A stretch of 51,440 nt of DNA from a virus: positions 1 to 51,440 of the IMG/VR virus record IMGVR_UViG_3300031951_000237; one strand, given 5' to 3'. The translations under genes and the position numbers were made by a program. Positions 7,283-25,748 of the stretch are shown piece by piece. Positions within the stretch are counted from its first letter, which is position 1. Every line of letters starts with the position of its first letter. Under the pieces are notes generated by a model, which worked only from the letters and a program-made list of their open reading frames with translations, had not been told where the DNA came from and searched no databases.

Positions 7283-7978
7283 ATGGATATTAAAATTTCA
7301 GAAATACAAGAACTATTTAAAGAGATATTCGAGGAAGAAGAGGGAATTGCTTCTTCCGTAGAGATAGTTTATGAGATGTCACCAGATGAAAAGTTTTATA
7401 AGATGGTGATATCTATTCAGGGTTTAGAAACTGAAGATGTTTCTATTATACATACAAAGTACATATTCAAAGTTGATTTAAATAAAAAAAATCTAATTGA
7501 GAATTCTTTTATTTACTTATATGATATAAATTGTGTTTATCACAAAATTGAGTTTGAAAATGTATTAGATGTTAAGAAGAAAATTGAAGATATCATAGAC
7601 TCAAATGATTTTGGTCAAGATTTACAAATTCTTTCAGACTTTATTGAAGCACCCGCTATGTTTTTAAATTACTACATGCGTAGAGCAAAAATCACTGACT
7701 ATTCGGTCTTTGATGTTGAGTATCAACCAAAGTTTAAAACAACTCCTTGTGATGAAACCACATTTGACTTTAAAATCAACATAAATAATAACTATAATAT
7801 GGAGTTGTCAATTTCTAAGGTTGATAAAACAAGTGAGGATGAAATAGACATATATAAATACCAATTTCGTTTTATGGATGAGATAGAGACGTTTGAAACA
7901 GACACTCTTAAAAACCTGCACTTCTTTATTGGTGACCATGTCGCTAAAATATTAGATAAAAAACTTAAAAATAAATAA
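7283..7978 (+). CDS. Hypothetical protein
   Basis: This 231-residue acidic protein matches no family I recognise. It has no signal peptide, membrane segment or catalytic motif that I can identify. It starts one base after the previous stop, and its last base is the first base of the next start codon, so it is translated with its neighbours. The region around 145-230 alternates strands and acidic turns. It lies between the nucleotidyltransferase-fold gene and another unknown, upstream of the portal. Confidence 0.6.
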   Translation: MDIKISEIQELFKEIFEEEEGIASSVEIVYEMSPDEKFYKMVISIQGLETEDVSIIHTKYIFKVDLNKKNLIENSFIYLYDINCVYHKIEFENVLDVKKKIEDIIDSNDFGQDLQILSDFIEAPAMFLNYYMRRAKITDYSVFDVEYQPKFKTTPCDETTFDFKININNNYNMELSISKVDKTSEDEIDIYKYQFRFMDEIETFETDTLKNLHFFIGDHVAKILDKKLKNK

Positions 7979-8625
7979 TGAAATATTTACATAAGTTTTT
8001 ACAACATTTAAATGAATCTCAGGATATAACAGATCTTTCTAAAGAAGAGTTAGATGAGATGTTACTTCCTATAAAGGATTTGGATATTGAATATTCTTTT
8101 CAGCCACCAAGAACAATCACAGAAGGTGAATATGAGGGATATACTTCAATGAATATCATATTCAGAAATTCATTTAAAACTGGACCTATGGGTGGTTACA
8201 CCGAAATGATAATTGATGATAAGTTTTGGGAGTTTTTAGATGAACTTATATCTTTTAAAAATCGTTTAGAAAGTGTCCAGGTGTCAATTAATACTAGTTG
8301 GAAATGGGGTATTGTCGTTTGTTTTATTCAAAATGCAAAAGTAGAAGGCGATTTATTCAAAGTTCAAAAATTGTACAATGAAATGTCCAAAAGGACAAGT
8401 GCTGCAAAAAGTGATTTTGTAAATGGTATTGTGAAAAGATTAAATAAAGAAGAATTTAAAATTACTGTAAATTGTAATGGTTTTGGACCTGGTAGTTATA
8501 CTGATAGAAAGTGGAATGGTCTTTTTAGGGGAATAGATTTCTCTGATTTCGATGTTGAGAAAAATATAACAGAGGACCGATACGGTGATAAACAGGCAGA
8601 GATTACAATAACTATTAAAAAGTAA
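7978..8625 (+). CDS. Hypothetical protein with possible capsid-targeting N-terminus
   Basis: This 215-residue protein has no recognised domain. It begins MKYLHKFLQHLNESQD, which resembles the T4 internal-protein leader MKTYQEFIAE. The LNE|S step fits the gp21-type cleavage rule (Leu or Ile, any residue, Glu). The C-terminal half contains an alternating-polarity beta-like stretch (KITVNCNGFG and QAEITITIKK). The start overlaps the previous stop by one base. The next gene is the portal, which supports a link to head assembly. Confidence 0.55.
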   Translation: MKYLHKFLQHLNESQDITDLSKEELDEMLLPIKDLDIEYSFQPPRTITEGEYEGYTSMNIIFRNSFKTGPMGGYTEMIIDDKFWEFLDELISFKNRLESVQVSINTSWKWGIVVCFIQNAKVEGDLFKVQKLYNEMSKRTSAAKSDFVNGIVKRLNKEEFKITVNCNGFGPGSYTDRKWNGLFRGIDFSDFDVEKNITEDRYGDKQAEITITIKK

Positions 8626-10839: not shown

Positions 10840-11270
10840 GCCGCCATTTTTGGTAATTCAAAATAAAAATTATCTATTTGACCTTCTATATTTATATGTT
10901 GAAATAGTTTTAAATCTATGTCGGATTCAAGTATATTTTTAACTTTTTTACCCCAGTTCGTGTCTAAAAAGGTAACATCAATTTTTAAGTTAATGATTTG
11001 GTTGTTTAGGATAATAAAAACAAATTTATTTATAACAGAACAAACATTTACCAAAGCGGTTGTGTATTTAAAATCATCCGAAACACTAACATAAAAGACA
11101 CTTTGATTATTTGGTATTTCAACATCAAATTGAATTTTTTTACCTTCTTCTAATAAAATATTTAGGTTTATTTCTCTTTTGTATTTTTTCCAATTACTAA
11201 ATCGTGATAGAATGTCTTCATAATCCTCTATTTTGGAATTATTTAATTCTATTTCAAATGTCCTTTTCAT
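10836..11270 (-). CDS. Hypothetical protein
   Basis: This 144-residue protein shows alternating beta-strand character and no recognised motif. It is the middle gene of a tight minus-strand operon: its start shares a base with the RNase R stop codon, and its stop overlaps the next start by 4 bp. No membrane segment or signal peptide is seen. A partnership with the RNase is possible only on grounds of position. Confidence 0.55.
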   Translation of the reverse strand: MKRTFEIELNNSKIEDYEDILSRFSNWKKYKREINLNILLEEGKKIQFDVEIPNNQSVFYVSVSDDFKYTTALVNVCSVINKFVFIILNNQIINLKIDVTFLDTNWGKKVKNILESDIDLKLFQHINIEGQIDNFYFELPKMAA

Positions 11271-13147
11271 TAGAATAATTTAAAGTCAATTTGCTTTTTT
11301 TCTAAATCAACTGTTGATACTATAACTTTTAAAGGATCCCCTAGTCTAATTTTATTACCCATTTCATCTGAAATAGTATAATGTTCTAAATCTACTTTTA
11401 CTTTACCTATTGTATTATATCTTATCATTCCCTCGCATTTGGATTCGGTTAATTCTACATAAATTCCCCAATCTGTTACACCTGATACAATTCCGTCAAA
11501 AACTTGACCAATTTTATCTTGTAAAAACTCAGCTTGTTTGTATTTTATAGAGTCTCTTTGTGCTTTTGCTGCTATTAATTCTCTACTAGAACACCAACTA
11601 GCATTTTCTTCAATTTTAGCAGGATTTCCTTGTTTTCCTTTATTTAAAAAATCAAATAAAATTCTATGTGTGATTAAATCCGGATATCTTCTAATTGGAG
11701 ATGTAAAGTGAGAATAGTGACTGAAACCTAATCCATAGTGACCAATGTTCTTGATAGTATATTTAGCCTTAGACATACATCTGGTAACTAAAGTCTCTAT
11801 CATGTTTTCTTCAGGAGTTCCTTTTATTTCTTTTAGTAGTTGATTAATTGATTTTTTTAAATCATCTCCTTCTCCTTCTATTTTAACATTGTGTCCAAAA
11901 TTCTCACAAACTCCTACTAGTTGTTGTAATTTTTCCATATTTGGTGTATCGTGTATTCTATAAACATTAAACCATTGATTTTCTGAAAGTATTTTAGCAA
12001 CTGATTTGTTAGCTAGTAACATAAATTCTTCAATAAGTTTGTTAGCTTCTTTTTGTTCTTTGAAATAAACTCCAATAGGTTTTTTATTATCTTCTGCTAA
12101 TTTAAAACGAACTTCAATTCCTCCCATTTCGATTGAACCATCTTTTATTCTTTTCTTTCTAATTTTCTGAGCTAATGTATTAAGAACTCTTATTTCATTG
12201 TGAAAGTCTCCGTCAGATCCTTCGATTATTTCTTGAGCTTCTTCGTAAGTAAATCTTCTATCTGAGTGTATAACCGTTTTTCCGTGCCACTCTTTAATAA
12301 TTTTCCCATCTTTATCTATATTGAATATTACAGAAAAGGCCAAACGATCTTCATGTGGCTTTAGTGAGCAAATTCCGTTACTTAGTCTCTCAGGTAACAT
12401 CGGAACGCATCTATCAACTAAATATACCGATGTTGCTCTTTTGTAAGCTTCTTCATCTAGTTTAGTTCCTGGTTTTACATAGTGACCAACGTCTGCTATA
12501 TGAACTCCTACTTCAATATTATTTTCGTTGATTATTTGTATTGAAAGAGCGTCATCAAAATCTCTAGCATCGACCGGATCTATTGTTAGTGTTGTTACAC
12601 TTCTTAAATCTTTTCTTTTTAGTATTTCATTTTCAAATATTACTTCAGGTACTAATTCTGACTCATTTAAAACTTCTTGTGGAAAATCAACCGGTAGATT
12701 ATACTCATACATTATTGAGTTCATTTCCGCGTTGTTATCACCTGCGTCTCCGAGTATTTTAGTTATTTTACCCTGTGGTGACTTAGAATCTTCCCATTTT
12801 GTTAGTTCTACAATAACTTTTTGTCCGTCTTTTGCAACTAATCCACCTTTGATATAAAAATCTACTGATAATTTATCACTGTCTGGTATTACAAATGTCG
12901 ACTTTTTTCCTATTTGAACTCTACCAACAAAATCTGTTCTAAATCTTGAAACTGTTTCAATTACTTTCCCCTCTAATTTCTTTTCACCTTTAAATATTTC
13001 TACTTTTACTTTATCTAAGTGTAGTGAGTTATGAGTATTTTTTCTGTGTATAAAAATTGACTTTTCTCCAATTGTTATGTTTGCATTTCCACTATTTGAG
13101 AACTCTATTTGACCTTCATATCGATCACCTTCTATTATGTTTATCAT
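11270..13147 (-). CDS. rnr: RNase R / RNase II-family 3'-5' exoribonuclease
   Basis: This 625-residue protein has the RNB catalytic block LTIDPVDARDFDDALSI. Asp190, Asp196, Asp198 and Asp199 have the same spacing as the metal-binding aspartates of E. coli RNase II. It also contains GVHIADVGHYVKPG, DRCVPMLPERLSNGICSL, and the HYGLGFSHYSHFTSPIRRYPDL active-site region near residue 475. An N-terminal cold-shock-like region and a C-terminal S1 domain (FDGIVSGVTDWGIYVELTE) complete the family layout; it is slightly shorter than E. coli RNase R (813). The enzyme digests structured RNA processively and in bacteria clears nonstop mRNA during trans-translation. Since this phage also has a tmRNA, a joint role is plausible but inferred. 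Confidence 0.93.
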   Translation of the reverse strand: MINIIEGDRYEGQIEFSNSGNANITIGEKSIFIHRKNTHNSLHLDKVKVEIFKGEKKLEGKVIETVSRFRTDFVGRVQIGKKSTFVIPDSDKLSVDFYIKGGLVAKDGQKVIVELTKWEDSKSPQGKITKILGDAGDNNAEMNSIMYEYNLPVDFPQEVLNESELVPEVIFENEILKRKDLRSVTTLTIDPVDARDFDDALSIQIINENNIEVGVHIADVGHYVKPGTKLDEEAYKRATSVYLVDRCVPMLPERLSNGICSLKPHEDRLAFSVIFNIDKDGKIIKEWHGKTVIHSDRRFTYEEAQEIIEGSDGDFHNEIRVLNTLAQKIRKKRIKDGSIEMGGIEVRFKLAEDNKKPIGVYFKEQKEANKLIEEFMLLANKSVAKILSENQWFNVYRIHDTPNMEKLQQLVGVCENFGHNVKIEGEGDDLKKSINQLLKEIKGTPEENMIETLVTRCMSKAKYTIKNIGHYGLGFSHYSHFTSPIRRYPDLITHRILFDFLNKGKQGNPAKIEENASWCSSRELIAAKAQRDSIKYKQAEFLQDKIGQVFDGIVSGVTDWGIYVELTESKCEGMIRYNTIGKVKVDLEHYTISDEMGNKIRLGDPLKVIVSTVDLEKKQIDFKLF

Positions 13148-17639: not shown

Positions 17640-17667
17640 AAAAAGACCTCTAAATGAGGTCTTTTTT
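17640..17667. terminator. Terminator after major capsid gene
   Basis: The GACCTC/GAGGTC stem (17645-17661) with a 5-base loop is flanked by A5 and T6. An in-frame ATG at 17654 lies inside this hairpin and is not a credible start for the next gene. Confidence 0.9.
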
Positions 17668-17678
17668 GTTTTATATAA

Positions 17679-17688
17679 ATAATATATA
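17679..17688 (+). promoter_or_regulatory. Late-type promoter motif 4 nt before ATG
   Basis: ATAATATATA ends four bases before the ATG at 17693, and a TATAAATA identical to the T4 late consensus overlaps it at 17674-17681. This motif supports 17693 rather than 17654 as the start of the NFACT-R gene. Confidence 0.55.
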
Positions 17689-17692
17689 TGTA

Positions 17693-18076
17693 ATGAAATA
17701 TTTGAAATATTTTGAAAGTAAAAAGCCTAAATTCCCAGATATCAAAAAGATTGAAGTTGATGGTTTTTTTCTACAATATGGAAGAGATGCTAAATCAAAT
17801 GACTATTTAACTTTTAATGTTGCTGAGGATGAAGATATTTGGATGCACGTTAAAGGTGTTCCTGGTTCTCATGTTGTTATAAGAGTTAGAGAAAACTTAC
17901 CTACACCTGAAATATTAAAATATGCCGCTGAAATTGCTAAAAAGAATTCAAAAGCAGCTAAAGAACCTTCTGTCAAAGTGGTTTATTGTCAAAGAAAGTT
18001 TGTCAAAAAAGAACCTGGTATGAATGATGGTCAAGTTAAAGTTGATTATATAAATGCGGAAGAAATCACTATTTAA
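17693..18076 (+). CDS. Stand-alone NFACT-R domain protein with capsid-targeting-like N-terminus
   Basis: This 127-residue protein starts MKYLKYFESKKPKFP. The rest is a single NFACT-R (DUF814) domain: an LQYGRDAKSNDYLTF stretch corresponding to the VGRN..ND.LT core, DIWMHVKGVPGSHVVIR, then AAEIAKKNSKAAKEPSVKV and a terminal QVKVDY. In RqcH/Rqc2 this domain binds the 60S/50S-peptidyl-tRNA interface during ribosome-associated quality control. Here the NFACT-N, helix-hairpin-helix and coiled-coil parts are absent. The same domain also occurs alone in some bacteria and phages with unknown function. Its N-terminus is identical over eight residues to the protein at 42358. I chose the start from that match and from the adjacent promoter motif. 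Confidence 0.8.
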   Translation: MKYLKYFESKKPKFPDIKKIEVDGFFLQYGRDAKSNDYLTFNVAEDEDIWMHVKGVPGSHVVIRVRENLPTPEILKYAAEIAKKNSKAAKEPSVKVVYCQRKFVKKEPGMNDGQVKVDYINAEEITI

Positions 18077-18093: not shown

Positions 18094-19635
18094 ATGAATT
18101 TATTTAAATTTAATCAAATATTTGAGGCTGGAACACAGTCTATAACTGATCCAAATAGAAATATACCAACTGGTGCATATAAATCTAAAGAAGATGTTTT
18201 CAAAAAAGAAGCACCAAAAGACGTAGATAGGAGTGCTAGAATTAAAATTTCTAGTGAATTAGAAAAAGTTCTTAAGAAAATGGAAGATAATGATAGTTAT
18301 CTTGCATTTGAAATGCTTTGGTTGGGTGAGCCTGGATCTAAGTATCAAAATGGTTTAGGAATTACAGATGTTACAATTTCAAATAAGGCTTATTGTTTTG
18401 AGGTAACTATTGGTGGTAAAAAATTTGATATGAAGATTGGTAAGTTCTTTAGATATTATTGGCCTGGTCTTCTTACTGAAGATGAAATAAAGTCTTTTAT
18501 TTATCAATACAATGATATGGTTTCTGATAATATCGGAGATGAATCTACGACTTCCGCTCAAAGAATACAAGTGCCTTCTTTTACTTATAATCCAAAGGAT
18601 GTTAAGGCAACTTTTCTGTCTTTGACTACTAAAACTTATCCTCATTTTGATGATTGTAGACATGAAAAAGAAGTATTACAGTTTTTACCAAAAGACTTAA
18701 AAAGAGACGAAGTTGGTAATTATTATAAAATAATAGGAAGTGATAAACCAACAATAATGTTTACTTGTCACTTAGATACCGCCGATAGAGAGCAAAAAAC
18801 TACTAAACTTTTTCAAGCAAATGGTAGAGTATCGGAAGAGGGATATTCTTTTAGACTAATTAAAACTGGATCTGGTGATGAGCATATCTACACTGATGGA
18901 TCTTCAATTTTAGGAGCCGATGATAAAGCAGGAACTGCTGTTATGTTATATATGATGACTAACAATGTGCCGGGAATTTACTATTTCTTTATTGGTGAGG
19001 AAAGAGGTGGAATTGGTTCAAATGCACTCTCTTCAATATATGATAGATGTGAATATCTTACTGATGTTAAAGCTTGTGTATCATTTGATAGAAGAAGAAC
19101 TACATCTGTGATTACTCATCAGTTGGGAAGACAATGTTGTTCAAATGAGTTTGGACAAGCACTTTGTGACGAATATAACAAAAGCGGTTTAAATCTTTCA
19201 TTAGATACAACTGGTGTTTATACTGATTCGGCTTCTCTAATGGAGGATATTGCTGAATGTACTAATATATCTGTTGGTTATTATAACGAACACAGAGGAA
19301 CAGAAATGCAAAATATGACTTACCTCATTAAGTTAGCAGAGGCTTCTGTTAAAGTTGATTGGAATAAACTTCCGATTAAAAGAAAGGTTGGTTATAATGA
19401 AGAATTATTTGCAAAACATAAGAATCTTATAAACGAGATTAAAAAGAATGTATTTGGGATTGATGTAAAGGTCATTGGTAAAGATGATAGAATATTTGTT
19501 AGTTTAGATTTAGAAGAGACTGATATGGGTGAAATTTATGATTCACTTATAAGAATACAGACAATACTTAACAAGTACAAAATAGAGGATTTAGGAATCT
19601 TTGATGAAACATATTTTAAAATAGAGCTAAAGTAA
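18094..19635 (+). CDS. Zinc metallopeptidase of M20/M28/M42 type with capsid-targeting-like N-terminus
   Basis: This 513-residue protein has a complete di-zinc exopeptidase signature in its middle: FTCHLDTAD (His and Asp ligands), ILGADDKAG (bridging Asp), IGEERGGIGS (catalytic and metal-binding Glu pair), CVSFDRR (Asp) and YYNEHRGTEMQ (last His). This order fits aminopeptidases or deacylases of the M20/M28/M42 group. The first ~165 residues and the last ~80 are extra domains without assignment. The N-terminus MNLFKFNQIFEAG resembles a capsid-targeting leader and IFE|A suits the prohead protease. The enzyme may therefore ride in the head and be injected, which is inference. The substrate is unknown. 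Confidence 0.78.
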   Translation: MNLFKFNQIFEAGTQSITDPNRNIPTGAYKSKEDVFKKEAPKDVDRSARIKISSELEKVLKKMEDNDSYLAFEMLWLGEPGSKYQNGLGITDVTISNKAYCFEVTIGGKKFDMKIGKFFRYYWPGLLTEDEIKSFIYQYNDMVSDNIGDESTTSAQRIQVPSFTYNPKDVKATFLSLTTKTYPHFDDCRHEKEVLQFLPKDLKRDEVGNYYKIIGSDKPTIMFTCHLDTADREQKTTKLFQANGRVSEEGYSFRLIKTGSGDEHIYTDGSSILGADDKAGTAVMLYMMTNNVPGIYYFFIGEERGGIGSNALSSIYDRCEYLTDVKACVSFDRRRTTSVITHQLGRQCCSNEFGQALCDEYNKSGLNLSLDTTGVYTDSASLMEDIAECTNISVGYYNEHRGTEMQNMTYLIKLAEASVKVDWNKLPIKRKVGYNEELFAKHKNLINEIKKNVFGIDVKVIGKDDRIFVSLDLEETDMGEIYDSLIRIQTILNKYKIEDLGIFDETYFKIELK

Positions 19636-19636
19636 T

Positions 19637-20206
19637 ATGAAAATAAAAACATTTATAAAATATTTAGAAAATATCAGAGAAGACGAATTTAGTCATCTTA
19701 ATAACGAACTTTCTGCTAATAAGAAAAATGAAGCTCGTTGGCCAGAAGATGATTATGGATATGATGATGATTCTACTAAAGATTATGGAGATTATGATGA
19801 TTGGTATGACGATGAAAGTACGCGTGATAACTCGAGAAAATCATCAAATCCTAAATTCGATGATGAAGATGATGACTATGGATATGAATCAGATGATGAT
19901 GATGATGATGATGACGTGCAACATTTAACTTATTTGCTTCGTCAAATGTTTAGAAACTCGGGTGTTGATAATGTTCAGATTACGGCAAAAAGAAATGAGG
20001 ATATTGTCATTGAAGTTAATATGGCAAAAAAAGAGACACTTAGAAGTATTATTAAAGTTTTTGAAGTAGCTAACAAACTTAAAAGAGATATATTAGCTCA
20101 ATATGATGCTGAATTTGACATTTGGCAATCGAAATCCGGTGGTGGAATACTTTCGTTTGGTTTTACATTAGATGAAGGTTTAGAAGATGATAATATGCCA
20201 TTTTAA
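19637..20206 (+). CDS. Acidic hypothetical protein with poly-Asp tract
   Basis: This 189-residue protein starts one base after the peptidase stop. The leader MKIKTFIKYLENIRED contains an IRE|D step fitting the prohead protease rule. Residues ~35-95 are an extremely acidic, disordered Asp/Tyr-rich tract with eight consecutive Asp. The C-terminal ~90 residues look like a small alpha/beta domain (QHLTYLLRQMFRNSGVDN, then VIEVNMAKKETLRS). No family is recognised. Acidic tracts of this sort can mimic DNA or bind basic partners, but this is speculative. Confidence 0.55.
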   Translation: MKIKTFIKYLENIREDEFSHLNNELSANKKNEARWPEDDYGYDDDSTKDYGDYDDWYDDESTRDNSRKSSNPKFDDEDDDYGYESDDDDDDDDVQHLTYLLRQMFRNSGVDNVQITAKRNEDIVIEVNMAKKETLRSIIKVFEVANKLKRDILAQYDAEFDIWQSKSGGGILSFGFTLDEGLEDDNMPF

Positions 20207-20238: not shown

Positions 20239-20246
20239 TACATTTG
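20239..20246 (+). promoter_or_regulatory. Possible host-type -7 element upstream of tmRNA
   Basis: TACATTTG fits the Bacteroidota housekeeping -7 consensus TAnnTTTG and overlaps a TATATATA run (20233-20240). Transcription would start about 20253, a few bases upstream of the mature tmRNA 5' end at 20268. No clear TTG is seen at the -33 position. Confidence 0.35.
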
Positions 20247-20267: not shown

Positions 20268-20641
20268 GGGGATGTCATAGAATAGATTCATAGAGTAGTG
20301 GTAGTTATGCAGGTGTCGGGTGGTTAAATGACCGACTAATAAATTAGGTAACAAAAGTCGTAAATGGCAAAACAAATGAAGTAGCATCCCGTGAAGATTT
20401 AGTAGCGGCGTTACAAAACAACATGCTTAAGGCAGAAGAGCTAGCAGTAGTTTAAGCTTTTAAGCTAATCGCAAAAATTCTCCAGCTGAATCACACAGTT
20501 TAAAATGTGAAACCAGAATTGTTAGAGTGATGGGTTAGTTCAACTAAATATTTTGTGAGTTTAGAAAAATTTCACTAAGCCTGTAAATGAATAATTATTG
20601 TTAGCTAGGGAAGACACCGGAGGCAGAGCCGGTCATCTCCA
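20268..20641 (+). ncRNA. ssrA: tmRNA (trans-translation RNA) with 31-codon tag
   Basis: The ends pair as a tRNA-like acceptor stem: GGGGATG (20268-20274) with CATCTCC (20634-20640), 7 bp including one G-U, then A as discriminator. CCA is not encoded (CTA follows). The tag reading frame follows AAAAGTC, as in E. coli AUAGUC, with resume codon GTA at 20360 and TAA at 20453-20455. This gives 31 residues beginning VNGKTNEV and ending KAEELAVV. The conserved 3' segment CTAAGCCTGTA is present, and its GCCTGTA pairs with TGCAGGT near the 5' end as helix P2. A GTCGG/CCGAC stem follows P2. The T-arm stem ACCGG/CCGGT has an abnormal 8-base loop lacking the TTC consensus. It rescues stalled ribosomes and tags nascent chains. 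SmpB is not encoded in this window. Confidence 0.88.
20360..20455 (+). other. tmRNA tag-peptide reading frame (31 codons)
   Basis: The frame starts with GTA directly after AAAAGTC and ends with TAA. The peptide is far longer than the usual 8-15 residues and predicted to be helical. It ends in AVV instead of the usual LAA, though Leu-Ala-Val-Val is still a small-hydrophobic end of the kind bacterial proteases recognise. Confidence 0.7.
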
Positions 20642-20649
20642 CTAAAATT

Positions 20650-20674
20650 AAGTCCGCCTAAGGTGGACTTTTTT
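20650..20674 (+). terminator. Terminator after tmRNA
   Basis: A 9-bp stem AAGTCCGCC/GGTGGACTT (one G-U pair) with loop TAA is followed by a run of six T. Confidence 0.9.
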
Positions 20675-20695
20675 AATTTATAACATATAAGAATT

Positions 20696-21214
20696 ATGAG
20701 TTATATCAATTCTTTTAGAGGTCGTTATTATTTCCTTTCAAACTTTTATCCCTGTAAAATTGAACATAAAGGAATTACATATCCTTCTGTAGAACACTAT
20801 TATGTTGCTCTAAAAGTTACTCAAATGCAATTCATTGATGGTGTTTATTATACTGCTCCTGATTTTAGAGAGTTAATTGCTAGAATACCAGATGCTGGTG
20901 ATGTAAAAAAATTAGGAAGTCGAGTAAAAGTTAGACAAGATTGGGAAGAAAAAAAATTAGACTTTATGAATTGGGGAATTCGTGAAAAATTCAAAGATCC
21001 TAAATTATGCGAGATGTTATTGGATACTGGTAAATTAGAACTTATAGAGGGTAACTTTTGGCACGATGTCTTTTGGGGTCAGTGTTCTTGTCCAAAATGT
21101 AATAGTATTGGTGAAAATCATTTAGGTAAAATTTTAATGAAGATTAGAGAAGAATTAAGACAACAAAATGAAAGACCTTCACTAGAAGAACAAATTAAAA
21201 ATCAAAATAAATAA
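20696..21214 (+). CDS. NADAR-family ADP-ribose N-glycosidase (YbiA-like)
   Basis: This 172-residue protein shows the full NADAR (DUF1768) signature: YYFLSNFYPCKI, YPSVEHYYVALK, EGNFWHDVFWG, and GENHLGKILMKIREEL. Family members cleave N-glycosidic bonds of ADP-ribosylated or riboside substrates, and some remove ADP-ribose from guanine in DNA, reversing DarT1-type toxins. In a phage it may repair ADP-ribosylated DNA made by host defence or act in NAD metabolism; I cannot tell which from sequence. A CxxC pair (QCSCPKCN) near residue 125 is an insertion. One base separates it from the DNA methylase gene, so the two are probably co-expressed. Confidence 0.85.
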   Translation: MSYINSFRGRYYFLSNFYPCKIEHKGITYPSVEHYYVALKVTQMQFIDGVYYTAPDFRELIARIPDAGDVKKLGSRVKVRQDWEEKKLDFMNWGIREKFKDPKLCEMLLDTGKLELIEGNFWHDVFWGQCSCPKCNSIGENHLGKILMKIREELRQQNERPSLEEQIKNQNK

Positions 21215-24686: not shown

Positions 24687-25748
24687 ATGAAAATTAAATT
24701 AGAGTATATTTGGTTAGATGGTTCCGAGCCCCAGCAACTCAGAAGTAAAACAAAAATAGTTGATAAAGCAGAAACTATGAATCCCGAGGACTACTCAATG
24801 TGGTCTTTTGATGGTAGTTCAACTCTTCAAGCAGAGGCAGGTAAAGGTAAAAACACAGATTGTTTGTTAAAACCAGTATTTGTTTGTAAAGATCCATTTA
24901 GAGAATATCCTAATAAATTAGTATTTTGTGAGGTTTTGAGTCCAGATGGAACTAATCATCCAACAAACAATAGAAGAAAATTAGCTTCTATTGTAGATGG
25001 TTTAAATCTTAATTCTTTAATTAAGAATGATGCTCCTTGGTTTGGTTGGGAACAAGAATACACTTTGACTCATAAGCCGGGTATGCCTTTTGGAGAGGGT
25101 GTTGGTTTGCCTTTGGGATTTGAAGTTGGTAAAACTCCAAGAGCACAAGGTGACTACTATTGTGGAATTGGGGCTGATACAGTAATTGGTCGTCAAATTG
25201 TTGAGGAGCATATGGATATGTGTTTAGAGATTGGTTTAGATATCTCGGGAATCAATGCCGAAGTTCTACTTGGACAATGGGAATATCAAATTGGTCCTGT
25301 TACGGCTCTCAACGGTTCTGATCAACTTTGGATATCAAGATATATCTTAGAAAGAGTTGCTGAAAAACATAGTGTTAATGTTTCTTTGCATCCAAAGCCT
25401 ATCAAAGGTGACTGGAATGGAACAGGGTGTCACGTTAATTTCTCTTCTAAAGAAATGAGAGAAGATGGTGGTATTGAATTGATTAAAGAAACAATGCCAA
25501 AACTTGAATCATCTCATATGGAACATATTGAAGTTTATGGTTTGCATAACGAACAAAGATTGACCGGTGAGCATGAGACATCGGGAATTCATGAATTTAG
25601 CTATGGGTATAGCACTAGAGATACATCTATTAGAATTCCGGCTCAATCACTTGTGGATGGACGAGGATATTTTGAAGATAGAAGACCATCTTCAAATTGT
25701 GATCCTTATTTGGTATCTGCTAAAATGTTAGAAACAGTTTATTCGTAA
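24687..25748 (+). CDS. glnA: Type II (eukaryote-type) glutamine synthetase
   Basis: This 353-residue protein has every signature of GSII: WSFDGSST, GWEQEYTL, GDYYCGIG, EVLLGQWEYQIGP, NGTGCHVNFSS, HNEQRLTGEHET, YSTRDTSIRIP and YFEDRRPSSNCDPY. The ATP, glutamate and metal-binding residues appear intact and the length is normal, so it should be active. It makes glutamine from glutamate, ammonia and ATP, feeding nucleotide synthesis. GSII occurs in eukaryotes and some bacteria including Bacteroidota, which suggests capture from the host lineage. It has its own terminator. Phage-borne GS is uncommon. I see no T4-type promoter motif before it, so it may be an early gene. Confidence 0.95.
   Translation: MKIKLEYIWLDGSEPQQLRSKTKIVDKAETMNPEDYSMWSFDGSSTLQAEAGKGKNTDCLLKPVFVCKDPFREYPNKLVFCEVLSPDGTNHPTNNRRKLASIVDGLNLNSLIKNDAPWFGWEQEYTLTHKPGMPFGEGVGLPLGFEVGKTPRAQGDYYCGIGADTVIGRQIVEEHMDMCLEIGLDISGINAEVLLGQWEYQIGPVTALNGSDQLWISRYILERVAEKHSVNVSLHPKPIKGDWNGTGCHVNFSSKEMREDGGIELIKETMPKLESSHMEHIEVYGLHNEQRLTGEHETSGIHEFSYGYSTRDTSIRIPAQSLVDGRGYFEDRRPSSNCDPYLVSAKMLETVYS

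Follow-up and report, generated by a model that had tools for sequence, protein, structure and literature searches.

A derived tmRNA in a huge phage

We have found a tmRNA (ssrA) gene in the window, by which we mean the whole stretch of 51,440 nucleotides of viral DNA analyzed here. It is located on the plus strand at 20268-20641, is made in one piece (374 nt up to the discriminator base) and is a highly derived member of its class, belonging to a huge phage related to LR756502 and LR745206. Judging from the match to the Rfam model RF00023 and from the comparison of 62 distinct copies, it is almost certainly a tmRNA. We give a probability of about three in four to the reading that it would be functional and specific to the phage, serving as the RNA component of an SmpB-paired ribosome-rescue system carried by huge Bacteroidota phages.

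The window proteins include a T4-type portal, a prohead protease, a Gp23-like major capsid protein and a terminase, and therefore the window is phage DNA. Among collected phages, its closest matches at the DNA level were the metagenomic phages LR756502 (642 kb) and LR745206 (635 kb), with 72 and 76% identity. The five genomes larger than 634 kb belong to the Mahaphage clade and are predicted to replicate in Bacteroidetes (PMC7162821). The same paper already names tmRNAs and SmpB in huge phages, and a word search of its main text gave no 'tagging', 'Clp', 'protease' or 'RNase R'.

Using the tag alignment to search viral contigs, we obtained 101 relatives, of which 80 were kept. Together with the window and the loci L001, L002 and L017 they make up 84 loci, 83 of them with a 3' end (L125, in which none was found, was dropped) and 62 distinct. 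Having been retrieved by the tag protein, these relatives are biased toward copies with an open tag. The alignment used for structure (A3) contains 48 of the 62. The cellular reference consisted of at least 120 loci picked by a GE[TNK]NYALAA-type tag pattern, so that the tag is fixed by design, but the upstream context and the loops are not; 107 gave an ARAGORN tmRNA, two of them with tags of another kind, and 106 entered the loop table. Three of 120 titles name other groups (Chlorobiota, Clostridium and Limnohabitans).

The original prediction, a real tmRNA at this place, is borne out. With relaxed filters the alignment to RF00023 extended over model positions 1-374, from end to end, and over 20268-20644 of the window, with 26.8 bits (E 8.3e-9 over 901 bases searched), a score below the cut-off of 47 bits. 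At that cut-off the search of the whole window against Rfam gave no RNA gene, and ARAGORN gave none either. A standard RF00023 search of the window's own record returned no candidate, though the relaxed-filter search scores one, indicating that the first-pass step loses weak members. Folded as a single sequence, the RNA was not better than shuffles (z -0.69, 19/100). With the thresholds missed and the fold at this level, the case for a tmRNA rests on comparison.

The relatives that share the tag type reach RF00023 scores of 74.6 (L114), 63.6 (L107), 59.8 (L101) and 58 bits (L103), all of them above 47. Matches at E 0.01 or better were found for 11 of 18 tag-family loci in one set and for two of eight in a second, where none of the eight was over the cut-off. 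The tmRNA copies are a graded series reaching into Rfam-positive members. The copies in the two huge phages, the 101 viral-contig loci encoding the tag, the covariation of P2 and PK1 and the presence of CTAAGCCTGTA indicate that the likeness is not due to chance. A decaying or accidental look-alike would explain why the window falls under the ARAGORN and Rfam thresholds and folds no better than shuffles, but we regard it as extremely improbable given the compensatory changes across 48 aligned copies and the series that leads to Rfam-positive members. Phage tmRNAs had been described as known but rare, in agreement with the 402 phages (2.3% of those checked) reported by (PMC9004378). Since standard tools miss most of the tag family (ARAGORN detects 3 of the 62 distinct copies), the number of tmRNAs encoded by the largest phages is probably underestimated.

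Architecture and gene neighbourhood

The acceptor stem, also part of the original prediction, has seven pairs, GGGGATG at 20268-20274 with CATCTCC at 20634-20640, followed by a discriminator A at 20641; CCA is not encoded. Its G3.U70 is the alanine identity pair. The raw count gives G3.U70 in 61 of the 62 copies, and the pair is present in 60/60 copies with an intact 5' end, leaving out L058 (5' half outside the contig) and L086 (the contig starts inside the gene), which were also excluded from the D- and T-loop counts. The PK1 stem (20315-20336, plus strand) is formed by GTCGG/CCGAC, 20315-20319 with 20332-20336, paired in 48/48 rows and changed on both sides at three of its five pairs. Its second helix, GTT 20323-20325 with AAC 20350-20352, is paired in 89.7% of cells. 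The P2 pairing that had been proposed covaries among the aligned copies, and the conserved CTAAGCCTGTA at 20575-20585 (plus strand) is its 3' side.

Taking PK1, the T stem and the two hairpins of the tag reading frame (ORF) together, 95.4% of cells were paired across the 48 copies against 77.5% in shuffled alignments, and double changes numbered 192 against 59, a value reached by 0/500 shuffles. The consensus fold of the alignment contains nested pairs only and lacks the acceptor stem, a part in which the 5' ends are out of register in the MAFFT alignment; the PK2-PK4 region is covered by the Rfam alignment alone. Around the stop codon (canonical helix 5) the stem lengths were only slightly above shuffles, not convincingly better. 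The acceptor identity pair, P2, PK1 and the resume context are all kept in the window tmRNA.

Upstream, 21 bases 5' of the mature end, TACATTTG at 20239-20246 (plus strand) matches TAnnTTTG, the -7 promoter consensus of Bacteroidetes (PMC7366714). This motif appears at 70 nt or less upstream in 41 of 59 distinct relatives, compared with 5.4% of base-shuffled 60-nt upstream stretches. Directly 3' of the tmRNA lies an intrinsic-terminator-like hairpin with a T run (20650-20675, plus strand); by raw count, a hairpin of -7 kcal/mol or better and then a T run follow 57/59 distinct copies. As far as the sequence tells, the tmRNA looks like a transcription unit in its own right, marked by the -7 element and the terminator-like hairpin.

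The order prohead protease, capsid protein, NFACT-R protein, peptidase, acidic protein, tmRNA, NADAR protein and adenine methylase was found complete in four of eight loci (L001, L002, L014 and L023) and in part in L006, L022 and L026; L029 has no NADAR match. The small NFACT-R domain protein (RqcH/NEMF family RNA-binding domain; 17654-18076, plus strand, PF05670 E 1.4e-14) has relatives in 7/8 loci compared. The proteins at 17654-18076, 18094-19635, 19637-20206 and 7978-8625, encoded next to the capsid genes, have in common short N-termini of the KYLKYFES, FNQIFEAG or FIKYLEN kind, which resemble the capsid-targeting sequences that the prohead protease cleaves in T4-type phages. By analogy, the NFACT-R (RqcH-like) protein and the weakly PepT-like peptidase may be packaged and injected. 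The NADAR-domain protein, at 20696-21214 directly after the tmRNA, is kept in several relatives, and our guess is that it may have to do with a defence acting through NAD or ADP-ribose. A glutamine synthetase-like protein is found at 24687-25748 (PF00120 E 6e-19).

A long tag ending in AVV

The tag ORF consists of 29 codons, GKTNEVASREDLVAALQNNMLKAEELAVV, plus TAA (20366-20455, plus strand), and the tag most likely starts at GGC 20366, its 29 residues coming after the alanine brought by the RNA. In the 62 phage copies the bases before the G were T(-5) in 58, A(-4) in 61, A(-3) in 61, R(-2) in 62 and Y(-1) in 62; the sole exception at -4 and -3 was L124, where the start had been set one codon late and was later corrected. 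This context also fits the cellular tmRNAs, with A(-4) in 107/107 and T(-5) in 95/107 by ARAGORN. Besides, ARAGORN places the tag start at the same G in all three relatives that it can detect. The spacing from PK1 to GGC 20366 is 13 bases, close to the 12 bases between PK1 and the resume codon in E. coli, in which A86, equivalent to A(-4), sets the frame (PMC2481249). On the basis of context, ARAGORN starts and spacing, the length of 31 residues first given to the tag should most likely be corrected to 29. The start required for 31 residues, a GTA two codons upstream, was rejected, as the resume context fits GGC better.

The AVV ending was read correctly, the C-terminal stretch being NNMLKAEELAVV, and 29 residues are indeed about three times the usual length, since the commonest length in a 2025 tmRNA collection for which RefSeq viruses were searched was 10 (PMC11915505). 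A phage tmRNA carrying its own long, non-LAA tag is thus supported. The tag frame is open in the relatives compared. The 49 distinct ORFs encode 45 distinct peptides of 27-30 residues, with Val (23) or Ala (26) as the last residue, specified by seven codons, and an AA ending is present in only 1/62 distinct copies. A tag profile gave one match per record, inside the tmRNA, in 6/6 large records, hence no second carrier of the tag was found there. A pattern scan of genome contigs for the tag produced 26 pattern matches, none confirmed, and the search of 50,697 phage records retrieved LR745206 and LR756502 only.

Covarying hairpins inside the reading frame

RNAalifold on the 48 tmRNAs gave 46 pairs, among them two hairpins within the tag ORF. 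Hairpin A (20381-20414, plus strand) has an outer stem GTAG/TTAC, 20381-20384 with 20411-20414 (99.0% paired, no double changes), an inner stem CCGT/GCGG, 20389-20392 with 20405-20408 (93.8% of cells paired, 4/4 pairs doubly changed), and an almost fixed loop, GAAGATTTAGTA, at 20393-20404. Hairpin B (20425-20441, plus strand) pairs GCTT/GAGC, 20425-20428 with 20438-20441, in 91.7% of cells, with 3/4 pairs doubly changed. Expressed in codons, hairpin A joins codon 6 plus the base that follows it to codon 16 plus the base that follows it, and also codon 9 to codon 14. In hairpin B, codon 21 and the last part of codon 20 are paired with codon 25 and the first part of codon 26. The codon 9/14 pair was CGT/GCG (R..A) in 23 of the 48 copies, AAA/TTT (K..F) in 9, AGT/GCT (S..A) in 6, AAT/TTT in 5, CGT/GCC and GTT/TTC in 2 each and CGT/TCG in 1.

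Considering the ORF hairpins alone, 94.8% of cells were paired against 79.2% after shuffling, double changes were 84 against 28.3 and the covariation score was 0.438 against 0.177, each of them reached by 0/500 shuffles. Structures slid along the alignment paired at most 46.5%. With 18 sequences of 75% identity or less the values were 92.6 against 77.3% paired and 29 against 8.7 double changes (0/1000). Two other measures, 'pairs with a double change' and 'pair types', did not put the ORF hairpins above shuffles (219/500 and 286/500). The unpaired ORF-hairpin cells amount to 5.2%, the codon pairs GTT/TTC and AAT/TTT pairing poorly; L107 and L111 do not have hairpin B in the common register, and six bases of this part of the ORF are missing from L017. 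Codon usage provides a further indication. GTA is fixed at codons 6 and 13 (62/62) and makes up 29% of the Val codons in 28 window genes, and CTA is found at codon 16 in 54/62 and makes up 11% of their Leu codons. Judged by these counts, codon choice departs from that of the 28 window genes where pairing needs it.

The explanation of tag conservation by peptide selection alone was rejected after the alignment fold revealed the ORF hairpins. Being constrained as RNA, the tag ORF has a length and a conservation that are not readable as peptide function alone, and its NG86 pN/pS of 0.58 is hard to interpret for the same reason (the frame-shifted controls had only 0 and 5 usable rows). In a published comparison helix 5, with the stop codon, lies after the frame and is weakly supported by compensatory changes (PMC1168896), and within the parts of the literature covered by our search we found no report of covarying hairpins within a tmRNA reading frame.

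The opposite extreme would be a long ORF kept for RNA structure, with the peptide as a by-product, in which any open frame with the hairpins would do. Amino acids that change in step with the pairing of two covarying hairpins, and the GTA and CTA codons held against window-gene usage, are what this explanation predicts, and we grant it some plausibility; but it is doubtful, because a Ser or Thr stands two residues before the acidic pair in 34/36 distinct cores through TCN, AGC and ACN codons, the last residue is Val or Ala in 49/49 ORFs despite seven codons, and third codon positions vary most (0.259 vs 0.177 and 0.151). We prefer a double constraint: the hairpins would shape the RNA ring, and most likely the Val/Ala end with the helix-like core would act as a degradation signal for a host or phage Clp-type protease.

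A rebuilt elbow

The T arm of the window tmRNA (20616-20633, plus strand) reads ACCGG, AGGCAGAG, CCGGT, with a stem doubly changed at 5/5 pairs and a non-canonical loop. With TAGAATA as D-loop and AGGCAGAG as T-loop, both consensus motifs are missing. D-loop GG and T-loop TTCRA were both present in 106/106 cellular tmRNAs, nearly all from Bacteroidota by title. Among 60 phage copies, in counts inflated by the relatedness among them, both motifs were lost in 51, both were present in 6 and GG was kept with another T-loop in 3, with 0/60 having TTCRA without GG. In most copies, then, the D- and T-loop sequences departed together from the bacterial consensus, not strictly so given the three exceptions. 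Members with and without TTCRA and GG are alike in the tag and elsewhere in the molecule, and so we do not take these motifs as required for a tmRNA. The interactions of the D- and T-loops are needed for SmpB binding and function (PMC3968760), and the change of both loops therefore suggests a new contact. Most likely, the rebuilt elbow would make the phage RNA prefer the phage SmpB and free it from host control.

SmpB, RNase R and Clp proteins

SmpB is encoded in 9 of 25 records, 6/6 of those of at least 385 kb and 3/19 of the smaller ones. One of the six large records, G002, carries a tag one residue off that of the window. No SmpB was found within the 51-kb window fragment or in 16 of the 25 records (all below 385 kb), one of these being the 122-kb contig G016, which has the window's own tmRNA. 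The two SmpBs tested passed both NCBIfam SmpB cut-offs. Five of the phage SmpBs (W01, W02, G002, G007 and G009, from records with a GGC[AG]G-type T-loop) share an extra residue before H-[DE]-[DE] that is absent from the other four phage and 13 cellular SmpBs; since these five also group together, we treat it as a lead only. No origin of SmpB was drawn from the tree, since some of its branches have weak support and it was built with 13 of the 14 host proteins.

A tmRNA with an altered elbow might be a decoy that titrates host SmpB or stalled ribosomes without tagging, like the TLD-only RNA of mycobacteriophage DS6A, a kind of molecule that inhibits tmRNA (PMC4131195). That the relatives supply their own SmpB, and that the open tag frame, the resume context and PK1 have all been kept, makes such a role improbable. 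Ribosome rescue remains our preferred reading, the tmRNA likely acting with phage SmpB during infection.

The window also codes for RNase R, the trans-translation exonuclease (11270-13147, minus strand; TIGR02063 657 bits, cut-off 598), and its RNB domain was found in 5/7 records searched, window included. ClpP was present in 6/7 records, the match in G001 having an internal stop, and a Clp-type AAA_2 unfoldase in 3/7, that of LR745206 being a 701-residue ClpA/ClpB-like protein under the NCBIfam cut-offs. The Lon_C domain was found in 0/7. Divergent ClpP-like genes lie within about 3 kb of SmpB in LR756502 (364599-365000 and 367597-368013) and in G002 (81468-81875 and 79293-79718). RNase R, ClpP and Clp ATPases may also serve purposes outside trans-translation; the Clp proteins in relatives would make a phage protease route for tagged chains possible. 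The covarying ORF hairpins, the rebuilt elbow and the SmpB and RNase R in relatives go beyond the original prediction.

The fate of tagged products may be considered in this light. The Val/Ala end favours a decay signal, whereas without LAA the tag is less likely to be fully used by host ClpXP. Another explanation, raised in the original prediction, is that the tag keeps or redirects products, as stable chains or as a functional helix, with no decay mark; AVV in place of LAA, the rarity of AA ends and a long conserved core, helix-like in make-up by eye, agree with it. Nevertheless, the tag end is confined to Val/Ala, and E. coli degrades tag variants that end in LVA, AAV or ASV. The relatives have ClpP and a Clp unfoldase, the single profile match in each large record indicates no second carrier of the tag, and the unusual tag of Mesoplasma is a Lon signal (PMC8138137), so that we consider a non-decay tag unlikely.

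Comparison with known systems

The Bacteroidota tmRNAs with GENNYALAA or GETNYALAA tags have in common with the phage family a T-A-A-N-Y before GGC and G-[EK]-T-N as first residues, but their tag has 9 residues ending in ALAA and their GG and TTCRA are intact. The tmRNA of Mycoplasma and Mesoplasma also has an unusually long, non-LAA tag, of some 27 residues; unlike the phage family it is cellular, and in Mesoplasma the tag is read by Lon, whose C-terminal domain was not detected in the seven phage records. The tmRNAs of mycobacteriophages, Bacillus phage G and the marine Melnitz-type phages are likewise phage-encoded (PMC4131195, PMC9004378), but standard searches find them, and that of Melnitz is two-piece.

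The Lak phages of Prevotella (about 540 kb) are also huge Bacteroidota phages with tmRNA and SmpB, the latter found in 15 Prevotella (Lak) phage records. In the three records read the resume context is TAAAT before G, as in the phage family, but the tags are ordinary 10-residue ones, DDEI[DE]FRMAA, in tmRNAs above the Rfam cut-off (48-54 bits). Long candidate tags together with SmpB in the same genome are found in LR756504 (636 kb; 24 residues), the IMG/VR record G001 (294 kb; 24 residues) and LR756501 (735 kb; 33 residues), with different sequences that end in AVAA, LMAA and LVLA. Long tags thus recur among the largest phages and the tag family of the window is one branch. The two 24-residue candidates, at loci L282 (LR756504) and L015 (G001), are DNVNSFEQSILNELFAPVEMAVAA and DNKSTMTFEDAMAFVGAGEVLMAA. 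The candidate tmRNA of LR756501 is a weak RF00023 match (21.1 bits). It abuts a group I intron at locus L292 (718200-718950; RF00028 53.2 bits, cut-off 50), which is probably inserted in the T-loop of the candidate.

A possible viral trans-translation

In the mechanism that we propose, the host alanyl-tRNA synthetase would charge the phage tmRNA, and phage SmpB would bring it to ribosomes that have stalled on broken mRNAs, presumably a frequent event in the infected cell. The ribosome would add Ala and the 29-residue tag, unfolding both ORF hairpins en route, and would stop at TAA, becoming free for phage protein synthesis, while the broken mRNA would be removed by phage RNase R. A stronger version, which we put forward as tentative and rather less likely to be right than wrong, is an orthogonal viral trans-translation in which tmRNA and SmpB rebuilt the elbow contact together and work poorly with the host partner, and in which the codon-paired tag hands chains to a phage Clp protease and not to host ClpXP.

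The tag ORF is a clear case of amino-acid changes coupled by codon-codon pairing within a reading frame. The natural tmRNAs without the T- and D-loop consensus, together with their matching SmpBs, make the role of the elbow in SmpB binding directly testable. The phage tmRNA is a possible source of an orthogonal tagging tool. If the orthogonal reading is true, ribosome rescue would be under the control of the phage, and so would the choice of the unfinished proteins to be destroyed.
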